From NCBI RefSeq assembly GCF_910596095.1, contig NC_056543.1, positions 26,050,542 to 26,114,541 on the forward strand: a DNA stretch of 64,000 nt, read 5' to 3'. Within the stretch, counting starts at the first letter, position 1; each line of letters opens with the position of its first letter. The position numbers and the translations under genes are program-made. Below the pieces are notes generated by a model. The model ran no database searches and was not told the DNA's origin. It worked only from the letters and a program-made list of their open reading frames with translations. Positions 43,401 through 56,140 of the stretch are shown piece after piece. The stretch is from Thunnus maccoyii. Lineage: Eukaryota > Chordata > Actinopteri > Scombriformes > Scombridae.

Positions 43401-46400
43401 CAACCAATTTGAGAATACTTTTTTGCTTTTTATTTAAAATCTATCGAAATAAACTTAAACGATCTTCCCCATCTGCCTCTTGCAGTACGATCCATTTGCA
43501 GAGCATCGTCCACAGAAGATCGCAGAGCGGGAAGATGAATACAAAGCCCGGCGCATGCAGATGATCATCTCACCTGAGCGTCTCGACCCCTTTGCAGATG
43601 GTAAATTTTGCTATTTTTTTGCCTTTATTACATCCTCCCCATTATCTCCCCCTTTTCATGGTTCACTTTTTTTTGTGACCCCCCCTCCCCCAAACTACCA
43701 ATGGTTTCACATCCATAGTTTTGCTGTTCAACCCTTCGATCACAATGCAATAGCTTGCTTCCCAGACTTGATGCCTTCCCTGTGGTCAATCCTCTGTGGT
43801 CCAAGAACATTTTGTGTCACTGTACGTTTTCTTCCTGATACATTTTTAATGAATCAACTTTGCTACAAATGTCCGTGTGGACACATAGTTTATCTTCAGT
43901 ATTTTGGTTTGGGAAAATGTTATTGTCATGAGCTGAATGTGAAATGGGAATTTGTGTCCTGGTTTGTGCAATAAAATGAAATCCATTGTAGGGTTGCCAT
44001 GCTTTTTAGTGGGAGAGGTGGTTAGGTGTTCAATGCTCAAAGGGGGTAATTCACCTAACAAACATGGGTCGCAGATGGGTTGTATGTGAGTCGAAGGGTT
44101 AACAATCCCATGTGACCGTCAGCCTTAATTATGATGGGAAAGTGCAGTATACTCTTAGCATATGAGGATGAGAAGTGAAAGTTTGAGGCTTAGCTATAGT
44201 GTAATTCACCTGCCAGTGCACTGTGCCATGCCATGCTTAGCACAGTAGCTGATACCAAATAGTGACCTGATCGCAAATAGACACAGAGCTTTAGATCCTT
44301 AGGCTGGCAGAGGAAAGAAACATGTTGGCTCGCATCAGCTTAGTCAACCCAGAGTCATTGGGGTTATATAACAAAATAAAGAAAGAACTCAATTAGTCAA
44401 TCAGGTCTCATTTGTCTCCCCAATGTCTTAATCTGGGCTGTAGTTTAAGCTTCTTGTGGTAACTTGCCACCTCTGTTCGCTTGTCAGACTTGATAGATCT
44501 GCAAGGTCCTTGGGCCTCATCATATGACACTGCATGACAAGATATTTAAAACTTAGTGTGGCCAACTTTTCCTAATGATTTGATGATTGTAATTTATAGG
44601 CTTGTTGAGTTAGTGTAGCTTATCACAAATAAACATTTTAGTTTTTTTAAGACCTTAAAACTGTGGAAATAGCATAATAAGTAGCAACAAGTATTGAGTA
44701 TTTGGGTAAAAGCACAAATGATATTTGAGCCAGCTAGTTTAACTTTCTTTCCATCTTCACTTCCCCTGACAATATGAGCTAAGAATGACCTGAATGTTTC
44801 AGGTTTGGTTTAGTTAGGGCCTATCTAAAGCCTGCATGTAGAGAGAGCTCTTTGTACAACGTTGTTTTGTAAATATATTTTTATTTTACAACTCTCTCTG
44901 TAAAATAGAAATATGTTATCAAGAAAATTGTGTACCACAATACCACAGGCCCATACTAACTGTCCTTAATTTCTCTCCTACAGCAGTACTGCTTTGCCAG
45001 TCCTGTACTGCACTCTGTTAAGGGTGCAGCAACTCATCCTGTGTAGGTTATGGGGAACACAGAGAACTGTGCACTTGTCAGTTTGGTCAGGGCCCACTTG
45101 CTGCTAATTTGACCCGGGGCCTGTGAGGGGAATCAGATGCAGCCCAGCCACAACAAAGTTTTTTTTTTAATTTGGCCTATCAAGTCCCAACAAAGTTGGA
45201 TAAAATTTTCCTTACATTCATGATGGAGAATTACTTCCCAAATATTTGATTGAATATCTTTGCCATCTTTTATCAGACACCTTTGTCCTGAAAACGAAGT
45301 CAAGTCAAATTTATAATAATTAAATAATAATCAGTGCTATTATGAGTCAGATTTTAGAGTGTGGCTCTAGCATGTCATATCATATTTCTGAACAAAAGTT
45401 GTGTAATGATGGTTGGGCTAAATTTTTTTTTTAACCTTATTTTATATTTGAATGCAAAGGTAGATACTTTTTATATTTTTGATTGTGCTGTGGTAATGTC
45501 ATTCCTAGATGAAAATCAAAATCTTGACTTCATTATAAATTATTAGGAATCTGGACCACAGGGTCTCTTATACATTTTTTTTCTAGTTTTGTGGTTATTC
45601 CCCAAGAAGATACTTTGTTTTTTTGAGTGCCGTATATCAATGCAACACAGGTGGTATACTGTTGTGTGTGACTTCAAACCCTTTTCCAAAGTGTTACTAA
45701 TGGTAAAGAGAAATTTTCTAGGCTTCTTTTCTGCCGGTTGAAGTCTGACTGCAGAGGGACCCTTGGCACTGAAAGTGTACGTATTCTGAAGAGCACAGCC
45801 CAGGACCCCTGCATCAGTGATGGCTATAACTTCTTTATCCACTTAAAGAAAACACCACAACCTCAGCTCTTCTCTTTATGTATCTGCTTGTTTTTCCTTA
45901 TGATGCTATGTCTGTATGTAAGAAAGAAAAATGTATATTTCTATGTAATTCAGTAGGACTTTGTTTTGTGATTAAGCTGTATAAAAACAGGAACATAAGT
46001 TAATCTGTTGGTATAGAGAGTCAGGGTTAGCTGGCTGTGTTTGTGCTTGCTGTGCTTACATGGGTCACTAGAGTGTATACTGATGAGTGTCCTATGTTCT
46101 TGTTCGTGCTCTTTCGCGCAGGGGGCAAAACGCCGGACCCCAAGCTGCAGGTCAGATCGTATGTGGACGTCATGTTGGAGCAGAATCTGTCCAAAGAGGA
46201 GGTAAGGTGTACCCACTGTATCTTTGACAGTAGACTGCGAGCTAGTTACAGATAGAAGTTTCAGATGTTTCTCCTTTATAGAGTCCTGTGCTTTGTTGTG
46301 CAGTAGTATTGTTTTTCCTGACATTTATATCTGTCTGCATGTAGAGGGAGATTCGTCAGCAACTGGCAGAGAAGGCCAAATCGGGGGACCTGAAAGCTGT

Positions 46401-49400
46401 CAACGGGTCTGCTGCCGCTCAAGCTGCCACAAAACGTAAGCGTCGATGGGACCAAACAGCTGACCAAACCCCCTCCAATGCTACGCCCAAAAAGATGTCC
46501 AGCTGGGACCAGGCTGATGCCAACGCTGAGGTCAGTCATTCAAGTTTCGGCCTCATACAGTTTCAAGTAAAAAGAAAAACTTGAATAAATAAATTCCTTG
46601 TAAATTCTTATAATCTGACTTTGTAACTTGAGGGAATGCAGTAATATGTGACATCAGCTTTGCAGTTGTGGATTGTCTCACTCATGTTTTTTTTTATAAT
46701 ATTTTCTTCTTTTGTAGACTCCAGGACACACTCCTGCACACACACCCTCAAACAGCCGATGGGATGAAACCCCTGGCCGCCCTAAAGGCAGTGAGACCCC
46801 AGGGGCCACTCCCAGTACCCGTATGTGGGACCCTACTCCCAGCCACACACCTGCTGGTGCTGCCACCCCTGGCAGGGACACACCTGGACACGCCACACCT
46901 GGCCATGGTGGAGCGACAGGAAGTGTTCGCAAGAACCGTTGGGACGAAACCCCAAAGACAGAAAGAGAGACCCCTGGACACGGGAGTGGCTGGGCTGAAA
47001 CGCCACGCACAGACAGAGGAGATGAGTCAGTGGGTGAGACTCCAACCCCAGGGGCCAGTAAGAGGAAGTCTCGTTGGGATGAAACCCCTGCCAGTCAGAT
47101 GGGATCCTCAACACCATTACTTACCCCAGGAAAGACTCCCATAGGAACCCCCGCCATGCACATGGCTACCCCGACACCAGGTAAACAAACATCACATTTT
47201 TGTTGCATTGTTGATGTCCATCTTCCCTTTTGTTCTCTATTCTTTGTGTCCATTCAGGGACTTGAGGAAAGAAGAAACCAATTTTGCAGAAGCTAATGAT
47301 AATCCAAACTTTCATATATCAGCCACATGACTCCTCAGGCCCCGTGATGGTTTTAGAGTGTTTCAGATCAGTTTCCTCTGTTCTCTCCAGGTCATCTGAT
47401 GAGCATGACTCCAGAGCAGCTGCAGGCGTGGAGGTGGGAGAGAGAAATTGATGAGAGGAACAGACCTCTCACAGACGACGAGCTTGATGCCATGTTCCCA
47501 GAGGGATACAAGGTCCGTGCCCACCCCACCCCTGCATTGAAGTCTATGTTGGAAAAAAGCAAAGAGTAAATACAACTTAAAATTAATCACAATACTAACA
47601 GTTTATTTTCCCTCTCTTTAGGTCTTGCCTCCACCAGCAGGCTACGTACCAATCCGTACTCCAGCCCGTAAGCTGTCAGCCACACCCACCCCAATTGGAG
47701 GCATGACGGGCTTCCACATGCAGGCAGAGGACCGCACCACAAAACAGATGAACGACCAGCCCTCAGGAAACCTTCCCTTCCTCAAACCCGACGACATCCA
47801 GTATTTTGACAAACTCCTGGTGAGTATCAAACTTCCAGAACAGTGTGTGTGCAAAACACGTGTAAAAAATTGTAAAATCAACAGCTGCATGTTTCTCCTG
47901 TCTGAAGTAAAATATGTCTGACTGACTCTGTGTGTTTGTGTTAGGTTGAAGTTGATGAGTCCACGCTGAGCCCTGAAGAACAGAAGGAAAGGAAGATCAT
48001 GAAGCTGCTGCTGAAGATTAAAAACGGAACACCGCCCATGAGGAAGGTTGGTTGCTGGTGTTGCCTCTTTAATTTCATATTTGTATTTATTGATTGGGAC
48101 AGTGTACAGTTTTTAACATAAAAGATGCACTGGACTGGAGTTATATCAAAGCTAATTTACATCCGCAGTCCCCCACAATCAAAACATACAGCAGCACAGA
48201 GCAAAAAACACACAGAACACATTATACAAAATACAAAGCTACACACAACAGCACATCACATACACCCACAATGTCAATTAGAAATTAATAATGTAAACTT
48301 GTTAAATTAAAAGCAAGACTACCTGCGCTAATGAGAAAACTATAGATGGAGGTTAGACTCAGTGGTCAGTGAACCATAATACCATATGGGCCCAAATTTA
48401 AGACTCCCTCCCCCTTCTACAGCATACAAGATACACCGACTTTGACACTTGTCCTCTTGGGAAAGTTTACCTGACCATCTTATTAATCCAAGGAGAAGAG
48501 AGTCCTCATCCTTGAAGCCTTTTCTCTCATAAAAGTGAAATAGTTTGTAAATCCCACATTTCTTTAACTTTCAGTCACACACTCTCACTTTGTCGTGTCA
48601 GACTTTTGGAAGCAGTAAATTTTATTTTCGTCTGGCGGCAGGCTTTTTTTTTTTTTCCTTCTTCAGACTGTCTTTTTGAGCTCCAGCAAAATATAGCAGT
48701 AATTTTACGCTGCTTGACAGATTATTCAGTTCTTGATCCATTTCTGCAGTAAAGATGTTGGAAGACTCTTTCCAATTTGTTTTCACCTCTCAATAATTTA
48801 TTTTCCTCCACAGCAGAAAAACACATTACACAAGCCTTCAGAAACTCCTGCAGGTTAAACTGAGCTGTTGAAACACTCTGTAGGACGCAGTGTTAGACTG
48901 GTACACTCCATTTAAAAAGAATTTGATCTTGTGAACATGTAATTGTCTAGTCCTCAAATATAAGATGACCCCCGTTTTCTCAAATGTAATTTGAAATAAA
49001 ATGGTGTCTCATATTCGGGCCAATACAGTATGATTTCCATTATCTTTTTAAAACATCCCCTCCTAATATGAGTCCCCAAATGTCCTTTACTCATTTGTGT
49101 CCTTATTTCCCCTTGATCATATTTCTGCCAAGAAGGCTTATAATAGCATAAAGCACATAAACAATACTCAATGCAAGATCAACACCCAGCACTAAGCCTG
49201 TGCGTGGCTACAGTGTGAATATTTGCTTGCTAAAGAATCTCCTCTGTGAGGAACTGCTGCTTTCAGTAGAGGTCAGAGTGTTGACCATCATACTCTGCTG
49301 GAAGCAGCAGACATAAATCATCAGCTCTGCCTGATGGTGCTCATTCATAAGAGCGCAACCACTCTCTGATCCTCTCTCCCTCTTGTCCTAGGCGGCTCTG

Positions 49401-52400
49401 CGTCAGATCACAGATAAAGCTCGTGAGTTTGGAGCAGGCCCCTTGTTCAACCAGATCCTGCCACTGCTCATGTCGCCCACCCTGGAGGACCAAGAGCGCC
49501 ACCTGTTGGTTAAAGTCATTGACCGCATTCTCTACAAACTGGATGACCTGGTTCGACCATACGTACACAAGGTAAGCTCAGTGTGGAAGATGTGCACTTA
49601 TTTTAGTGGATTGTGCCGGAGAAACTGACTGACTGTCTTTTTTGTATGCAGATCCTGGTGGTGATTGAGCCCCTGCTGATTGATGAGGACTACTATGCCA
49701 GAGTAGAAGGCAGAGAAATTATTTCCAACTTGGCAAAGGTAATGTGGAGCAATTTTTTACATTAAGGGTTCCTGCGAACTATTCTCGCCTGTTCAACCAG
49801 TCCATGGTCAGATCAGGGCTAGTCGTTCGCTAGATTGACACCAACATGAGAGCTAGCAGACTGGACATTCATGTCTGGTCTGTTCTCACCCTGCACCCGT
49901 TGGTTACAAGAAGATCTTCCATTACCTACATTTTTCCATGTAATGAGTGTTCAGGCTTTCATAGACATATATAATTTTTTTTTTTTTTTTTTTTAAATTT
50001 TGACAGATCAAAATTTTTATATCGATTTACGTAGATATGTAGACAAAACTAACCTGTTGATCCATAGCATTCATATACCAGTGTACTAGCCCAATCAGGC
50101 TCAGCAGACTGAGTATGCTCAAAATAAAAAACAAGTCCTAACTGCTAAAAGAAACATGTACACATGCTACTTTAGTTGTTATCAGAGGTTGATGTCTGGT
50201 TTTGTAATGGCTGCACTTTGACATTTAAGTTCAATGATGAGACATTAATTTTTTAAATTTTAATTGCCATTTTACCATAGCGAAATAAATAAATTGGAAT
50301 TAAATGTATTGCAATACCATCATGTCCTCAAAAGTAAAAATGAGCAAATAAACTGCTACTGCATCACATATTTGACATTTCCGTCTTCCTCCTCTTCGTG
50401 CCAGGCTGCTGGTTTGGCTACAATGATCTCCACAATGCGACCTGATATCGACAACATGGATGAGTACGTCAGAAACACCACAGCCAGAGCCTTTGCTGTA
50501 GTGGCCTCTGCCCTTGGTATTCCCTCTCTGTTGCCCTTCCTCAAAGCCGTGTGTAAAAGCAAGAAGTCCTGGCAGGCCCGACACACAGGCATCAAGATCG
50601 TCCAGCAAATTGCCATCCTTATGGGCTGTGCCATTCTGCCCCACCTCCGCAGCTTGGTGGAGATTATCGAACACGGTCAGTCATGGTCAAATGTTAATCT
50701 GTCTGCAGGTCCTTGTAGACTTAAAATGTTTGTCATTGTCAAACCACCACATTTTAATTTAACAAATGTAGAGATGCACAGCCTTTCAGCTTATATTTAC
50801 ACATATGGAAACATGTTTCAGGAGTTTTCTATTTTTTCAGTCCCTATTTGAGTTTGGGTACTTTCCTTATTGCCAGCTACATTTTTACATATGTTTATAT
50901 TGTATATATTTCTTCTGCCACTTTAAATCCATTACACTGGAACCAGCAGCTACAGTTCATAACCATCCACACTGAAAACATATGTAAGCTCAAACTATTT
51001 GTTCTGACTGTGCTGCCACAGGTCTGGTGGATGAGCAGCAGAAGGTGAGAACCATCAGTGCTCTGGCCATAGCTGCTCTCGCTGAAGCTGCTACACCCTA
51101 TGGTATCGAATCCTTTGACTCAGTCCTCAAGCCCCTGTGGAAGGGTATCAGACAGCACAGAGGAAAGGTAAGAAGACCCTTTTGATCAAAGGTAGAAGGT
51201 TGCTTTGTCAGATTTTTAATGTAAAGAACAAACCAGTGCAAGATCAACACCCAGCACTAAGCCTGCATGTGGCTACAGTGTGAATTTTTGCTTGCTACAA
51301 TGTCTCCTTTGAGGGGCTGCTGCTGTCAGTAGAGGTCTGATGGAAGACCACTAAAACTCTACTGGGAGCATCAGACAAGACACACCTGACTAAGGTGAAC
51401 ACACAAAAAAAGATGAGCTAAGTTTTAATTTTGTTGTTTATCTCTACCCCTTGTCACCAGGGTCTGGCTGCCTTCCTCAAAGCTATTGGCTACCTGATCC
51501 CTCTGATGGACGCTGAGTATGCTAACTACTACACCAGAGAGGTGATGCTGATCCTCATCAGAGAGTTCCAGTCCCCCGATGAGGAGATGAAAAAGATTGT
51601 CCTAAAGGTAAGAGGGGTGGAAAATGATGGTAAATGTGAAGGAAGTGAAGTCATGCTATTATAAACCTTACATAACTTAGTGCGAATAATTCTCGCCTGG
51701 TCAACCACTACATGGTTGAATCAGGGCTAGTAGTTCGCTAGATGAACTCCAACATGAGATTTAGCAGAGCTGACATTTGTGTCCTCTCTCCTCTCATCCT
51801 GCACCCGTTGGATACATTTACAAACTCTGGACTCTGCTCTGTCTCTGAACTTGGATGCAAGAGGCCCACAGACTTAACTTGGATCCTGGAACCTAGTTGT
51901 TGCTGTTGGTCATTTGTCATGAGTTTTTATCTCTGTCTTGTATTGTCTCATAGGTGGTGAAGCAGTGTTGTGGCACTGATGGTGTGGAAGCCAACTATAT
52001 TAAGACTGAGATCCTGCCCCCCTTCTTCAAGCACTTCTGGCAGCACAGAATGGCTCTGGACAGACGCAACTACAGACAGGTTAGCATACAGACAGACTTG
52101 GGACTCATTTTTTCCATCTAATGAATCAAAAATGCTCCAAAATATCTGAAACACACATTCATGTTGCTGAAATTGGATTAATGTAATTATGTGTTCAATT
52201 GAATGATTGTGGTCTCTGATTTGTGCAGTAGGAGACAGACTGTTAAACGTACTGCACAGTAAACATTATCGTCCTTTGTTTTGGTCTCATCTGAATCTGA
52301 ATCACCATTAATACAAAACAACAGAAAACTGCACAAATCAAATAAGACATTTAACTCCTGTATTACACATTCACAGTTGTCAAAGACAATATGTCTCACA

Positions 52401-55400
52401 ACACCTCAATAAAACTTAAACTCTGTGTTAAACATTTCAGCTGCAAAATGTGACCTATTACAATACACAACCTCAGCAAAATAAGCAAATAAGATGTCAA
52501 GGCTGCTGAAGCTTAAACACACATCCCCTGAGTTTTTGAACCATCTTTCTCCTCATACAGTTGGTGGACACCACAGTGGAGTTGGCCAACAAGGTGGGAG
52601 CTGCAGAGATCATTTCTCGCATCGTGGATGACCTGAAAGACGAGGCCGAGCAGTACAGAAAGATGGTGATGGAGACCATTGAAAAAATTATGGGCAACTT
52701 GGGAGCAGCTGACATCGACCACAAGCTGGAGGAGCAGTTGATCGACGGTATCCTGTATGCCTTCCAGGAACAGACGACAGAGGTGAGAGGAACGACACCA
52801 ACAAATCTTAACGAGAACTATTGACAGATATATAACCCGAACAGCGTTTTTAATTAATTTCATTCCCTCTGCAGGACTCTGTGATGCTCAATGGTTTCGG
52901 CACAGTGGTAAATGCTCTCGGGAAGCGTGTGAAACCCTACCTGCCTCAGATCTGTGGTACTGTGCTGTGGCGTCTGAACAACAAGTCAGCCAAAGTCCGT
53001 CAGCAGGCTGCAGATCTGATCTCTCGCACTGCCGTCGTCATGAAGACCTGCCAGGAGGTACACTATAAAGACACACACTCGCACAGATTTAAATATGTAA
53101 TGCTGTAAGGAAGCTAATGACATGTTCTCGTTGTCTGTCACTGCAGGAGAAGCTGATGGGTCACTTGGGTGTGGTGCTGTATGAGTACCTGGGAGAAGAG
53201 TACCCTGAGGTGCTGGGTAGCATCCTGGGAGCACTGAAGGCCATTGTTAATGTTATTGGTATGTCGCCTCACTACATCACCTTCATCAACAGTCATTCCA
53301 TACTTTTCCTGAATAATTTTGTGAGCCTGGCATTGAGTTGCAATCAGTCTTTTTTTCCTAGCAGCCTATTTAGGTTTCAAGATGTAATTCATTTCCATTC
53401 TTTCTGCAGGTATGCACAAAATGACTCCACCAATCAAAGACCTGCTTCCTCGTTTGACTCCCATCCTGAAGAACAGACATGAGAAGGTGCAGGAGAACTG
53501 TATCGACCTGGTGGGCAGGATCGCTGACAGGTCAGTAGAATAAACCTCAGACTGAAGTGATATGAATCTTCTAGCTGTGTCTTTTTGGTTTGCACAGTGA
53601 GCACCAGAGAGCCTTATTCTAACCTCTTGTGTATATTTTAGGGGTGCTGAGTACGTGTCAGCCAGGGAGTGGATGAGGATTTGTTTTGAGCTGCTGGAGT
53701 TGCTCAAGGCTCACAAGAAGGCCATCCGCAGAGCCACTGTCAACACGTTTGGTTACATCGCCAAGGCCATTGGGTGAGTTCCTAGTATCAAATCATTGTA
53801 GAGATCTTCAGTCCCCGACTACATCATTTTGTATTTCTGTGTATTTCTCCTTTTTAATATGATTTGAAATGTTTAATCACACTGAACACATTCAGACATT
53901 CCTTGTTTCACTATAAGTGTGATCTAAACCTATACATCGCCCTCCTCTCTCCTCGCAGTCCCCATGATGTCTTGGCCACTCTGCTCAATAACCTGAAGGT
54001 CCAGGAGCGTCAGAACCGTGTCTGTACAACTGTGGCCATCGCCATCGTCGCTGAGACCTGTTCACCGTTCACAGTCCTGCCCGCGCTCATGAATGAATAC
54101 CGCGTGCCTGAGCTCAACGTGCAGAACGGTGTGCTCAAGTCCTTGTCCTTCCTGTTTGAGTACATCGGAGAGATGGGCAAAGACTACATCTACGCTGTCA
54201 CACCTCTGCTGGAGGACGCGCTCATGGACAGGTGAGTTCATCCACCTCAACCTTTGTAATCACATTCCCTGAGTAAGTTTGGTTTGCTTTATAGTTTCAG
54301 TATAATCATGTCAGTATCTGTTTAACCATGTGACCCCTGTACTTCTGTTGTCCTGCAGAGACCTGGTCCACAGACAGACAGCTAGTGCGGTGGTCCAGCA
54401 CATGTCTCTGGGTGTCTACGGTTTTGGCTGTGAAGACTCCCTCAACCACTTGCTCAATTACGTCTGGCCCAACGTATTTGAGACGTCGCCTCATGTAATC
54501 CAGGCCGTCATGGGCGCCCTGGAGGGACTAAGGGTCGCCATCGGGCCCTGCCGCATGCTTCAGTACTGCTTACAGGTAAGGCCAACCAGGACATACCTCA
54601 TGACTTCAAAACTGCTAAATAAGCCATTCAGAGACGAACAGTTTTACATTTTTTAATTGTGTACGAGGGCTGCTAATAATCTACACTTTAAGTAGCAACA
54701 AAGCAAAGTTAAAAAAAAAAAATCAGATTGTGAGATCAATGCTGAATATTTAAGGCTGATACTGATACTAAAAATTTTCATAATGATATATCAGACGGTA
54801 TATGTTCGGACATGGACAAATAATCTTGATACGGATCCCTTAGATTTGTTTTTAAAGAAGTGTGACCAAGAAACTGTAACATAGACGCTGTTTCTAAAAA
54901 CTTCAACCCAGTTTGGTATTTCTGTACTGCAATATCTTATCAGCTGGCAAATTTATTGATACTGATATGTCTACAACAAGCTGATAATGGCTGATATGTT
55001 GGCCGGGACCATTTATTGGTCTTGTATCAGATAGTGCTTTAAGAATATTACACTTTCTAGTTACAGCTTCAGAAATATCAGAACTCTCTTGCTTTTCTCC
55101 GTTTCATATCAAAAATAAGATTTTGTTCTTATTGGTTGGACAAAATATTACATTTGAAGACACAGGTTACTTGAGGAGGACATTTTTCATTGTTTTAGGC
55201 ATTTAATTGACTAAATAATTAATAGATTCATTAAAAATAATCAAGGTGAATGGTAATGAGACTATTATAGTTGCAGCCCTACAACTGACTGACATAAATA
55301 CAGATGTTGTCATCTGGTAGCACTCCTCTCTTAAAGGAGTTATTTCTTTTATTATTTTATAATATAAGATAAGACTGATTCAAGGAAATGCTGCTCTGAA

Positions 55401-55669
55401 TAAGGAAATATATTTCAAAAGTGAACCCTTTTTTTTAGTTAGTGAAAGATAATTAGATGTTGATCTGTGAGTGACTATTCTAAGCTTTATTGTGTTGCCT
55501 TCATCTCCAGGGTCTGTTCCATCCAGCCAGGAAGGTGAGAGACGTCTACTGGAAGATTTATAACTCCATCTACATCGGCTCACAAGATGCCCTCATCGCC
55601 CACTACCCACAGGTCTACAACGACGAGAAAAACATTTACGTCCGCTATGAGCTGGAGTATGTCTTGTAA
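40475..55669 (+). CDS. sf3b1: Splicing factor 3B subunit 1 (SF3b155), complete, 24 coding exons
   Basis: HEAT-repeat core of SF3b in the U2 snRNP, which clamps the branch-point helix in the nucleus. Exons: 40475-40502, 42775-42947, 43192-43293, 43486-43600, 46122-46201, 46345-46530, 46718-47180, 47391-47512, 47622-47819, 47945-48046, 49392-49571, 49652-49738, 50405-50675, 51022-51167, 51461-51607, 51954-52079, 52561-52782, 52875-53057, 53147-53258, 53410-53530, 53642-53773, 53959-54231, 54359-54575, 55511-55669. The product is 1314 residues (human 1304). The N-terminal third has KRKRRWDQT and repeated RWDETP motifs, the family's U2AF-binding ULMs, within TP-rich sequence. From about 480 on it is near-identical to human HEAT repeats. 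The human cancer hotspot residues E622, R625, H662, K666 and K700 are conserved as E632, R635, H672, K676 and K710. Introns 10, 12, 14 and 15 carry snoRNA-like elements. Confidence 0.98.
40957..41026. repeat. Near-perfect 70-base hairpin in sf3b1 intron 1
   Basis: Arms 40957-40972 and 41011-41026 (GCATGGTGGGTTTAAT and its exact inverse) continue into TAGCTA/TAGCTG. An apical AATAATGT/ACATTATT stem (40981-40988 / 40992-40999) closes it. Confidence 0.8.
41275..41297 (+). repeat. Poly-G run of about 20 bases
   Basis: Uninterrupted G tract after ACCAT in sf3b1 intron 1, on the transcribed-RNA sense strand. Confidence 0.9.
41460..42215. repeat. Large dispersed repeat fragment in sf3b1 intron 1
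   Basis: About 750 bases without coding potential, with segments I recognise as recurring in fish genomes: GGATGGCGAGCACC, GGGACTAACACGCAGAAATA, GTGGGTACCCATAGAACCCC, AACTTTGGAGCGTCATTTAG and TAGTTTCATATGAAACCAGT. The class is not known to me. Confidence 0.55.
43337..43404. repeat. Perfect 24-bp hairpin in sf3b1 intron 3
   Basis: Arms 43337-43360 and 43381-43404 are exact reverse complements around a 20-base loop, and GGG/CCC in the loop can extend the pairing. It fills about a third of the 192-base intron. Confidence 0.9.
49169..49316 (+). ncRNA. Intronic H/ACA snoRNA-like RNA, family A copy 1
   Basis: Lies in sf3b1 intron 10. Hairpin 1 has lower stem GCAAG/CTTGC (49173-49177 / 49226-49230), an internal loop and upper stems CACT/AGTG and AGCC/GGCT. 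An H-box AAAGAA (ANANNA) follows directly at 49232-49237. Hairpin 2 pairs CTGCTGCTTTCAGTAGAG with CTCTGCTGGAAGCAGCAG around a GGTCA/TGACC tip. An ACA box at 49311-49313 follows the stem, three bases from the proposed end. The second copy is at 51236-51380. Hairpin 2 lacks an obvious guide pocket, so only hairpin 1 would guide. The snoRNA identity is not recognised. Confidence 0.65.
49773..49911 (+). ncRNA. Intronic H/ACA snoRNA-like RNA, family B copy 1
   Basis: Lies in sf3b1 intron 12. Hairpin 1 is closed by GCGAAC/GTTCGC (49774-49779 / 49825-49830), with an inner GCCTG/CAGGGC stem and unpaired pocket strands between. The hinge starts AGATTGACA. Hairpin 2 has lower stem CCAAC/GTTGG (49841-49845 / 49899-49903), then TGAGA/TCTCA and a 12-bp helix CAGACTGGACAT/ATGTCTGGTCTG. 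TT and an ACA box (49906-49908) follow, three bases from the end. This is textbook H/ACA layout at 139 nt. Confidence 0.75.
51236..51380 (+). ncRNA. Intronic H/ACA snoRNA-like RNA, family A copy 2
   Basis: Lies in sf3b1 intron 14. It is a diverged copy of 49169-49316 with the same GCAAG/CTTGC, CACT/AGTG and AGCC/GGCT stems in hairpin 1. Hairpin 2 keeps CAGTAGAG/CTCTACTG, and its tip is GGTCT/AGACC where copy 1 has GGTCA/TGACC, a compensatory change. The H-box position reads ACAATG, off consensus at its last base. The ACA box is at 51375-51377. Confidence 0.6.
51681..51819 (+). ncRNA. Intronic H/ACA snoRNA-like RNA, family B copy 2
   Basis: Lies in sf3b1 intron 15, the same length (139 nt) as copy 1. 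Hairpin 1 is closed by GCGAAT/GTTCGC (a G-U pair replaces C-G) and has an inner TCAACCA/TGGTTGA helix. The H-box is a perfect AGATGA at 51740-51745. Hairpin 2 has CCAAC/GTTGG (51749-51753 / 51807-51811), TGAGA/TCTCA and an AGAG-GAC/GTC-CTCT upper stem. The ACA box is at 51814-51816. Confidence 0.75.
54720..55290. repeat. Dispersed repeats in the last sf3b1 intron
   Basis: About 54760-55030 carries GATACTGATA / CAAGCTGATAATGGCTGATA blocks typical of a fish short repeat. About 55060-55285 is a GCTGCAACTAACGATT-type copy ending in TAGTTGCAGCCCTA. Confidence 0.5.
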
Positions 55670-56140
55670 ATACAAATTTATGTGCTCTCAGTTTTTCTCC
55701 TCCCTCAATCATCACTCTCTACTGTCTTATCTATCTTGGTCTAGGACTGAGTCGGTCTTTATTTAGCAACTGTATGTTGGTCTTTCCCCAGACCAGACAG
55801 AACAATCCAATAGAGACACACATTCAGCTTCTGCTGGATGCCACTTATTGACCCTCAATTAAAAATGAGTGAAAGTAGGTGAAATAAAACAAGGGACACT
55901 GTTGAGTCTGTATGTAATTTTTTTTTTTTTCCTCTTATTTTTTTGGAATGTTTTCTATAAAGAATGGTTGACATCAGTCAAACCTTGATTGAGGAATGCA
56001 GGGCAGTTGTCAAAATGTTTTAAATATTTGGATATTTTTGTGTGTGTATTGATAGGCCTCTGCACTGGCTGCTCCATTTACACACCCTCTCCTCATTTCA
56101 CACTTCCTCTGTTCTTATTAGATTGTTGTTTTATTTAACC

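Follow-up and report, generated by a model that had tools for sequence, protein, structure and literature searches.

Two copies of a probable SNORA72-homologous H/ACA snoRNA in introns of sf3b1 of Thunnus maccoyii

What are the two look-alike segments found in introns of sf3b1 in Thunnus maccoyii, and what is their history? The window analyzed here, i.e. the whole stretch of 64,000 nt from which they come (GCF_910596095.1, NC_056543.1, positions 26,050,542-26,114,541 of the forward strand), had been described in an earlier note as carrying two similar intronic segments of 139 nt, proposed to be a duplicated H/ACA snoRNA in introns 12 and 15 of sf3b1. We found both segments as described, and they can be aligned without gaps, with 110 identical positions out of 139 (79%) and 29 substitutions. 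The blastn match between them covers 49773-49908 and 51681-51816 and leaves the flanks outside, hence the detectable similarity ends at the snoRNA edges. The segments (termed here copy 1 and copy 2) are both on the sense strand of sf3b1, and their position with respect to the neighboring exons is as follows:

49773..49911, plus strand: copy 1, SNORA72-like H/ACA snoRNA of 139 nt, in the intron 49739-50404, with the donor 34 nt upstream
50405..50674, plus strand: sf3b1 exon after copy 1, matching positions 603-692 of the SF3B1 chain 5ife_C (E 2e-56)
51461..51607, plus strand: sf3b1 exon before copy 2, matching positions 742-790 of the SF3B1 chain 5ife_C (E 6.4e-26)
51681..51819, plus strand: copy 2, SNORA72-like H/ACA snoRNA of 139 nt, in the intron 51608-51953, with the donor 73 nt upstream

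The intron with copy 1 directly precedes the exon that starts at position 603 of the SF3B1 chain, and the intron with copy 2 directly follows position 790. The exon matches establish that the hosts are introns of sf3b1, as proposed; the numbers 12 and 15 are unconfirmed, and according to the human SF3B1 exon numbering, these would presumably be introns 13 and 16.

Other introns of sf3b1 contain a second duplicated pair of H/ACA-like segments (approximately 49171-49316 and 51236-51380, 82% identity according to blastn), which is found at two places genome-wide and exhibits a hairpin GCAAG/CUUGC and a CAGACA end. Rfam offers no family for this pair, the best snoRNA being SNORA35 with 18.3 bits versus the cut-off of 39, and the stretches, cut at the 3' end, do not fold beyond chance (z -0.85 and -0.79). 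It is possibly a snoRNA absent from Rfam.

Analysis of copies 1 and 2 reveals the layout of H/ACA snoRNAs, with two hairpins, a hinge and an ACA box in both of them and a complete H box in copy 2 only. The lower stem is GCGAA/UUCGC in hairpin 1 and CCAAC/GUUGG in hairpin 2 of each copy. The elements from the hinge to the 3' end are:

49832..49837, plus strand: H-box position of copy 1, AGAUUG, with the last base off ANANNA; the right guide strand begins 14 nt upstream
49840..49904, plus strand: hairpin 2 of copy 1, lower stem CCAAC/GUUGG, free fold without a clear two-sided pocket
49906..49908, plus strand: ACA box of copy 1, three bases from the 3' end, read from the sequence
51740..51745, plus strand: H box of copy 2, AGAUGA, a complete ANANNA, read from the sequence
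51748..51812, plus strand: hairpin 2 of copy 2, lower stem CCAAC/GUUGG, without a SNORA72 match when taken alone
51814..51816, plus strand: ACA box of copy 2, three bases from the 3' end, read from the sequence

The ACA three bases from the end, which the earlier note had pointed out, is present in both copies, while its hinge at the H-box position holds as a full ANANNA for copy 2 (AGAUGA) and not for copy 1 (AGAUUG).

Both copies fold better than their dinucleotide-shuffled versions, with z-scores of -2.85 for copy 1 and -3.45 for copy 2 and none of the 200 shuffles being as good in either case. The structure common to both, calculated with RNAalifold, comprises 38 pairs, among them 34 unchanged and none broken; with two sequences, the covariation statistics are weak. 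Two pairs show one-sided changes, including C-G to U-G at columns 7/53, the same change that had been noticed earlier in the closing pair of hairpin 1, and two pairs (columns 68/132 and 89/106) show two-sided, compensating changes. When the 29 substitutions were distributed over copy 1 at random 500 times, the energy of the common structure averaged -18.3 and never attained the observed -33.1; judged by the energy of the single sequence, 3 of the 500 mutants did as well as copy 2.

In order to assign the copies to a family, we resorted to Rfam. At the gathering cut-offs, no matches were found in the window. In a scan of 46000-56000 with a permissive threshold, SNORA72 (RF00139) is the top family for both copies, matched over the full length (model positions 1-132 of 132) and on the same strand, with 34.1 bits for copy 1 (E 0.024 over 4,227 families) and 31.9 bits for copy 2 (E 0.074 over 4,227 families). 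Both scores fall short of the RF00139 gathering cut-off of 43 bits, hence we call the copies homologs of SNORA72 and not Rfam-qualified members. The Infernal/Rfam check proposed in the earlier note therefore returned one and the same best family for both copies, below its cut-off. Apart from these, a single Rfam match to E 5 was obtained in 46000-56000, with a lncRNA model and at a different segment. Most of the score comes from hairpin 1, which in copy 2 obtains 24.5 bits with RF00139 when scanned alone, while a separate scan of hairpin 2 of copy 2 does not return SNORA72 up to E 5; thus, the family membership rests on the 5' half. Two other assignments were considered and rejected, namely SNORA3, which matches the opposite strand of hairpin 1 in copy 2 with 16.4 bits versus the cut-off of 51 and is taken as chance, and a new unnamed snoRNA family, which is disfavored by the full-length RF00139 matches.

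Pseudouridylation pockets of H/ACA snoRNAs place the target uridine some 14-16 nt ahead of the H or ACA box. In hairpin 1 the spacing fits this rule, as the right guide strand starts from column 46 and the H box from column 60, a distance of 14 nt; hairpin 2 has no clear pocket. For the pairing analysis we used a 5.8S rRNA copy found in the T. maccoyii assembly (L003, 1467-1619), which scores 133.9 bits in Rfam and has the exact conserved core. A 49-letter stretch of 5.8S rRNA has no exact match in the genome, and a shorter stretch has one. Within 1.4 kb on each side of the L003 copy there is no 18S or 28S match from Rfam, and this copy may be a dispersed one, outside the rDNA array. The best site for hairpin 1 of both snoRNA copies on this 5.8S rRNA is U54, with 6+5 Watson-Crick pairs, or 6+6 when one G-U is included. 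The strands involved are:

49782..49787, plus strand: left guide strand of hairpin 1 in copy 1, UUCUCG, 6 Watson-Crick pairs with 5.8S rRNA downstream of U54
49818..49822, plus strand: right guide strand of hairpin 1 in copy 1, GCUAG, 5 Watson-Crick pairs with 5.8S rRNA upstream of U54
51690..51695, plus strand: left guide strand of hairpin 1 in copy 2, UUCUCG, pairing with 5.8S rRNA as in copy 1
51726..51730, plus strand: right guide strand of hairpin 1 in copy 2, GCUAG, pairing with 5.8S rRNA as in copy 1

We take U54 of the genomic 5.8S rRNA to be U55 of the human one, as the fish copy begins a single base further in than human 5.8S rRNA does. The left pairing comprises 6 pairs, not 7, because the fish copy has C at a site where the human sequence presumably has U. 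Columns 10-15 and 46-50, which hold the 11 guide positions, are identical in the two copies. With the geometry fixed at 6+5 Watson-Crick pairs, the only ones to qualify among 63,940 placements per strand of the window are copies 1 and 2 on the plus strand, both at U54, with none on the minus strand; this geometry was taken from the free-geometry result, i.e. after the match had been seen. With the geometry left free, equally good pairing is obtained with 60 of 3,000 shuffles of the 5.8S sequence and with 51 of 5,000 stretches drawn at random from the window, so that the complementarity is at the 1-2% chance level and the free test is weak. On the same 5.8S rRNA, the Rfam SNORA72 consensus pairs slightly better at U145 (5+7, with 2 G-U) than at U54 (6+4). 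In the free fold of both copies the pocket letters of hairpin 1 pair with each other and the pocket is partly closed; when it is forced open, the energy changes from -46.8 to -42.5 kcal/mol in copy 1 (a difference of about 4.3) and from -42.6 to -39.8 kcal/mol in copy 2 (about 2.8). The proposal to look for pocket complements in rRNA and snRNA was followed on the single 5.8S copy, where it was successful for hairpin 1 (6+5 at U54), with hairpin 2 reaching at best 3+5 pairs.

Scores under the gathering cut-off, and a hairpin 2 that in copy 2 has no SNORA72 match of its own, would also be compatible with a new H/ACA snoRNA, unrelated to SNORA72, that arrived at the same 5.8S pocket by convergence. 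We regard such convergence as quite improbable, since the agreement with the RF00139 model is not confined to the guide letters and includes the lower stem (GCGAA/UUCGC) as well as the first part of the hinge, and since an intron of the known host gene, rpl30, contains a degraded relative of the copies (see below), although this relative does not itself resemble the Rfam consensus significantly (28 of 283 controls score as high).

The 782-Mb genome was searched in several ways. Copy 1 used as a DNA query finds two places, copies 1 and 2, which is a lower bound. The pattern ATTCTCGCN{18,36}GGCTANNNNTTCGC, which consists of the letters common to the Rfam consensus and both copies and which is escaped by any sequence with a single letter changed, has 2 forward and 0 reverse matches in the genome, again copies 1 and 2, and the control with the reversed pattern has 0 forward and 0 reverse matches. 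A genome-wide scan with RF00139, lossy in that 47 of 119,985 candidates were scored, lists copy 1 as its only match (E 0.454) and misses copy 2, with none above the cut-off among the matches listed; of 14 prokaryotic genomes used as controls, 2 show below-cut-off matches with RF00139 at an equally loose threshold. A covariance model built from both copies (R1) recovers the two of them, and apart from these it matches the window only on the minus strand, in four echoes located at the two copies themselves, of which the best has 18.4 bits. Two similar copies within one gene might also be members of a dispersed SINE or another repeat, an outcome that the earlier note had itself envisaged, but the counts of two genome places by the DNA search (at least) and two by the pocket pattern leave this reading with practically no probability.

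A different possibility is that the segments are snoRNA-derived pseudogenes residing in sf3b1 without any product. The H box of copy 1 is imperfect, which would agree with this proposal; on the other hand, 29 substitutions have left no broken pairs and include two compensations, the 11 guide positions have stayed unchanged between the copies, and the pattern search found no other intact pocket in the genome. We therefore consider the pseudogene explanation very improbable.

We infer with a probability of about 85% that copies 1 and 2 are intron-encoded H/ACA snoRNAs, homologs of SNORA72 acting on U55 of 5.8S rRNA, whose gene would have moved from rpl30 to sf3b1 and then duplicated there, with the rpl30 copy decaying. 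The assignment to SNORA72 draws on the sequence, the conserved structure, the family match below the cut-off, the complementarity to 5.8S rRNA and the uniqueness of the pattern in the assembly. In general, H/ACA snoRNAs encoded in introns are excised through splicing followed by trimming, and they serve as guides for dyskerin. The two RNAs would be freed from the spliced introns of sf3b1 and would then assemble with the H/ACA proteins dyskerin, NHP2, NOP10 and GAR1. The pocket of hairpin 1 would pair with the stretches of 5.8S rRNA that flank the counterpart of human U55, and dyskerin would convert this uridine to pseudouridine. The original suggestion of a duplicated intronic H/ACA snoRNA in sf3b1 is supported by the sequence evidence, which also supports an identity that the suggestion had missed, that of a SNORA72/U72 homolog with a predicted pocket for 5.8S U55, hidden by the Rfam gathering cut-off.

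The proposed history can be confronted with the rpl30 locus (L007, C15:13767500-13772000), in which two rpl30 exons were found at C15:13768880-13769981 on the minus strand. The locus has no Rfam match with SNORA72 to E 5. Alignment with the sf3b1 copies reveals a candidate stretch in an rpl30 intron (approximately 686-806 of L007, minus strand), collinear with both copies along the snoRNA. Downstream, tblastn finds the end of the rpl30 protein as nine identical residues (E 0.020), hence the intron with the candidate is the last coding intron. The local scores of this intron are 213 with copy 1 and 199 with copy 2, compared with 169/155 and 140/152 (copy 1/copy 2) for the two other rpl30 introns. 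As controls we used half-overlapping chunks of the same length, taken from the window without 48,500-52,500 and from twenty other stretches of the genome, and for each copy none of the 283 chunks of the former or the 920 of the latter scores as high. Used as a DNA query, the stretch finds one place in the genome. Its fold is not beyond chance (z +0.20), and in the alignment, read by eye, neither lower stem is intact and the right-hand guide strand differs at its first base. The model R1 gives 4.2 bits to a stretch that includes the candidate, the third of ten noise-level matches. The rpl30 stretch is apparently a decayed relative of the sf3b1 copies and would most simply be the old SNORA72 gene.

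On balance, we lean towards a history in which SNORA72 left rpl30 in the fish lineage, where an unfolded remnant stays in the last intron, and is intact only as the two copies in sf3b1. Alternatively, and with consequences for the history only and none for the function, the relative in rpl30 may be a later, dead paste from sf3b1 and not an ancestral remnant. Its lack of significant similarity to the Rfam consensus (28/283), which ties it to the sf3b1 copies only, would agree with a paste, as would the view that human H/ACA copies are mostly retrotransposed (PMC8178906); yet snoRNA retrotransposition is believed to be a mammalian process (PMC8178906), and the relative has the same orientation as rpl30, the gene in which SNORA72 resides in human (PMC7072173) and chicken (PMC2653536), and we find a secondary paste unlikely.

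The same locus contains, at 4202-4328 of L007, a long inverted repeat with below-cut-off likeness to several microRNA models on both strands, which is more likely a small inverted-repeat transposon.

As homologs of SNORA72, the copies described here are ordinary in kind and less so in place, given the host sf3b1, the presence of two copies and the apparent remnant in rpl30. If true, the change of host would make the pseudouridylation of 5.8S rRNA depend on how a core splicing factor, and not a ribosomal protein, is expressed and spliced. With the strict cut-off of the covariance model, a guide that is likely conserved goes unseen in fish, and it has been argued earlier that snoRNAs of non-mammalian species escape automatic annotation (PMC3349704). 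A possible change of host in which the old site is still legible also bears on the proposed drift of intronic snoRNAs among broadly expressed genes (PMC3511168). The belief, voiced in the earlier note, that SF3B1 hosts no snoRNA would meet a counter-example, subject to expression data. Literature searches for snoRNA with sf3b1 and for SNORA72 with fish or zebrafish returned, among the matches listed, no title that we recognized as reporting copies in sf3b1.

Copies in separate introns of one gene are described as products of cis-duplication (PMC2653536; PMC8178906), while human H/ACA copies are found more often in different hosts (PMC8178906). Migration of snoRNAs among broadly expressed hosts is also documented (PMC3511168), and the case of SNORA58 in primates resembles the present one in that a snoRNA is found in different hosts across lineages, with the difference that here the old host appears to retain a decayed remnant (PMC3511168). 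SNORA72/U72 (RF00139) itself shares with the sf3b1 copies the lower stem of the 5' hairpin, the pocket letters and the start of the hinge, as well as the 5.8S U55 target (predicted here), the H/ACA layout and the intronic location on the sense strand of the host. It differs in the host, which is RPL30 in human and chicken as opposed to sf3b1 with two copies in separate introns, and in hairpin 2, which has diverged in the sf3b1 copies, and these end with ACA where the Rfam consensus has AUA. The host of human SNORA72 is given as RPL30 in PMC7072173; a table in the same paper lists 5.8S U55 under SNORD72 with the host RPL37, an entry that we take for a slip. The chicken homolog of U72, GGgACA1, is reported to have 5.8S-55 as its predicted target, with 7+5 nt in its 5' hairpin, and to reside in intron 3 of RPL30 (PMC2653536). 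It agrees with the sf3b1 copies in this target and in the use of the 5' hairpin pocket, with 7+5 versus 6+5 pairs, and differs from them in where it resides, the intron of an EST in addition to the RPL30 intron, and in a second listed target, 28S-3342 (PMC2653536).
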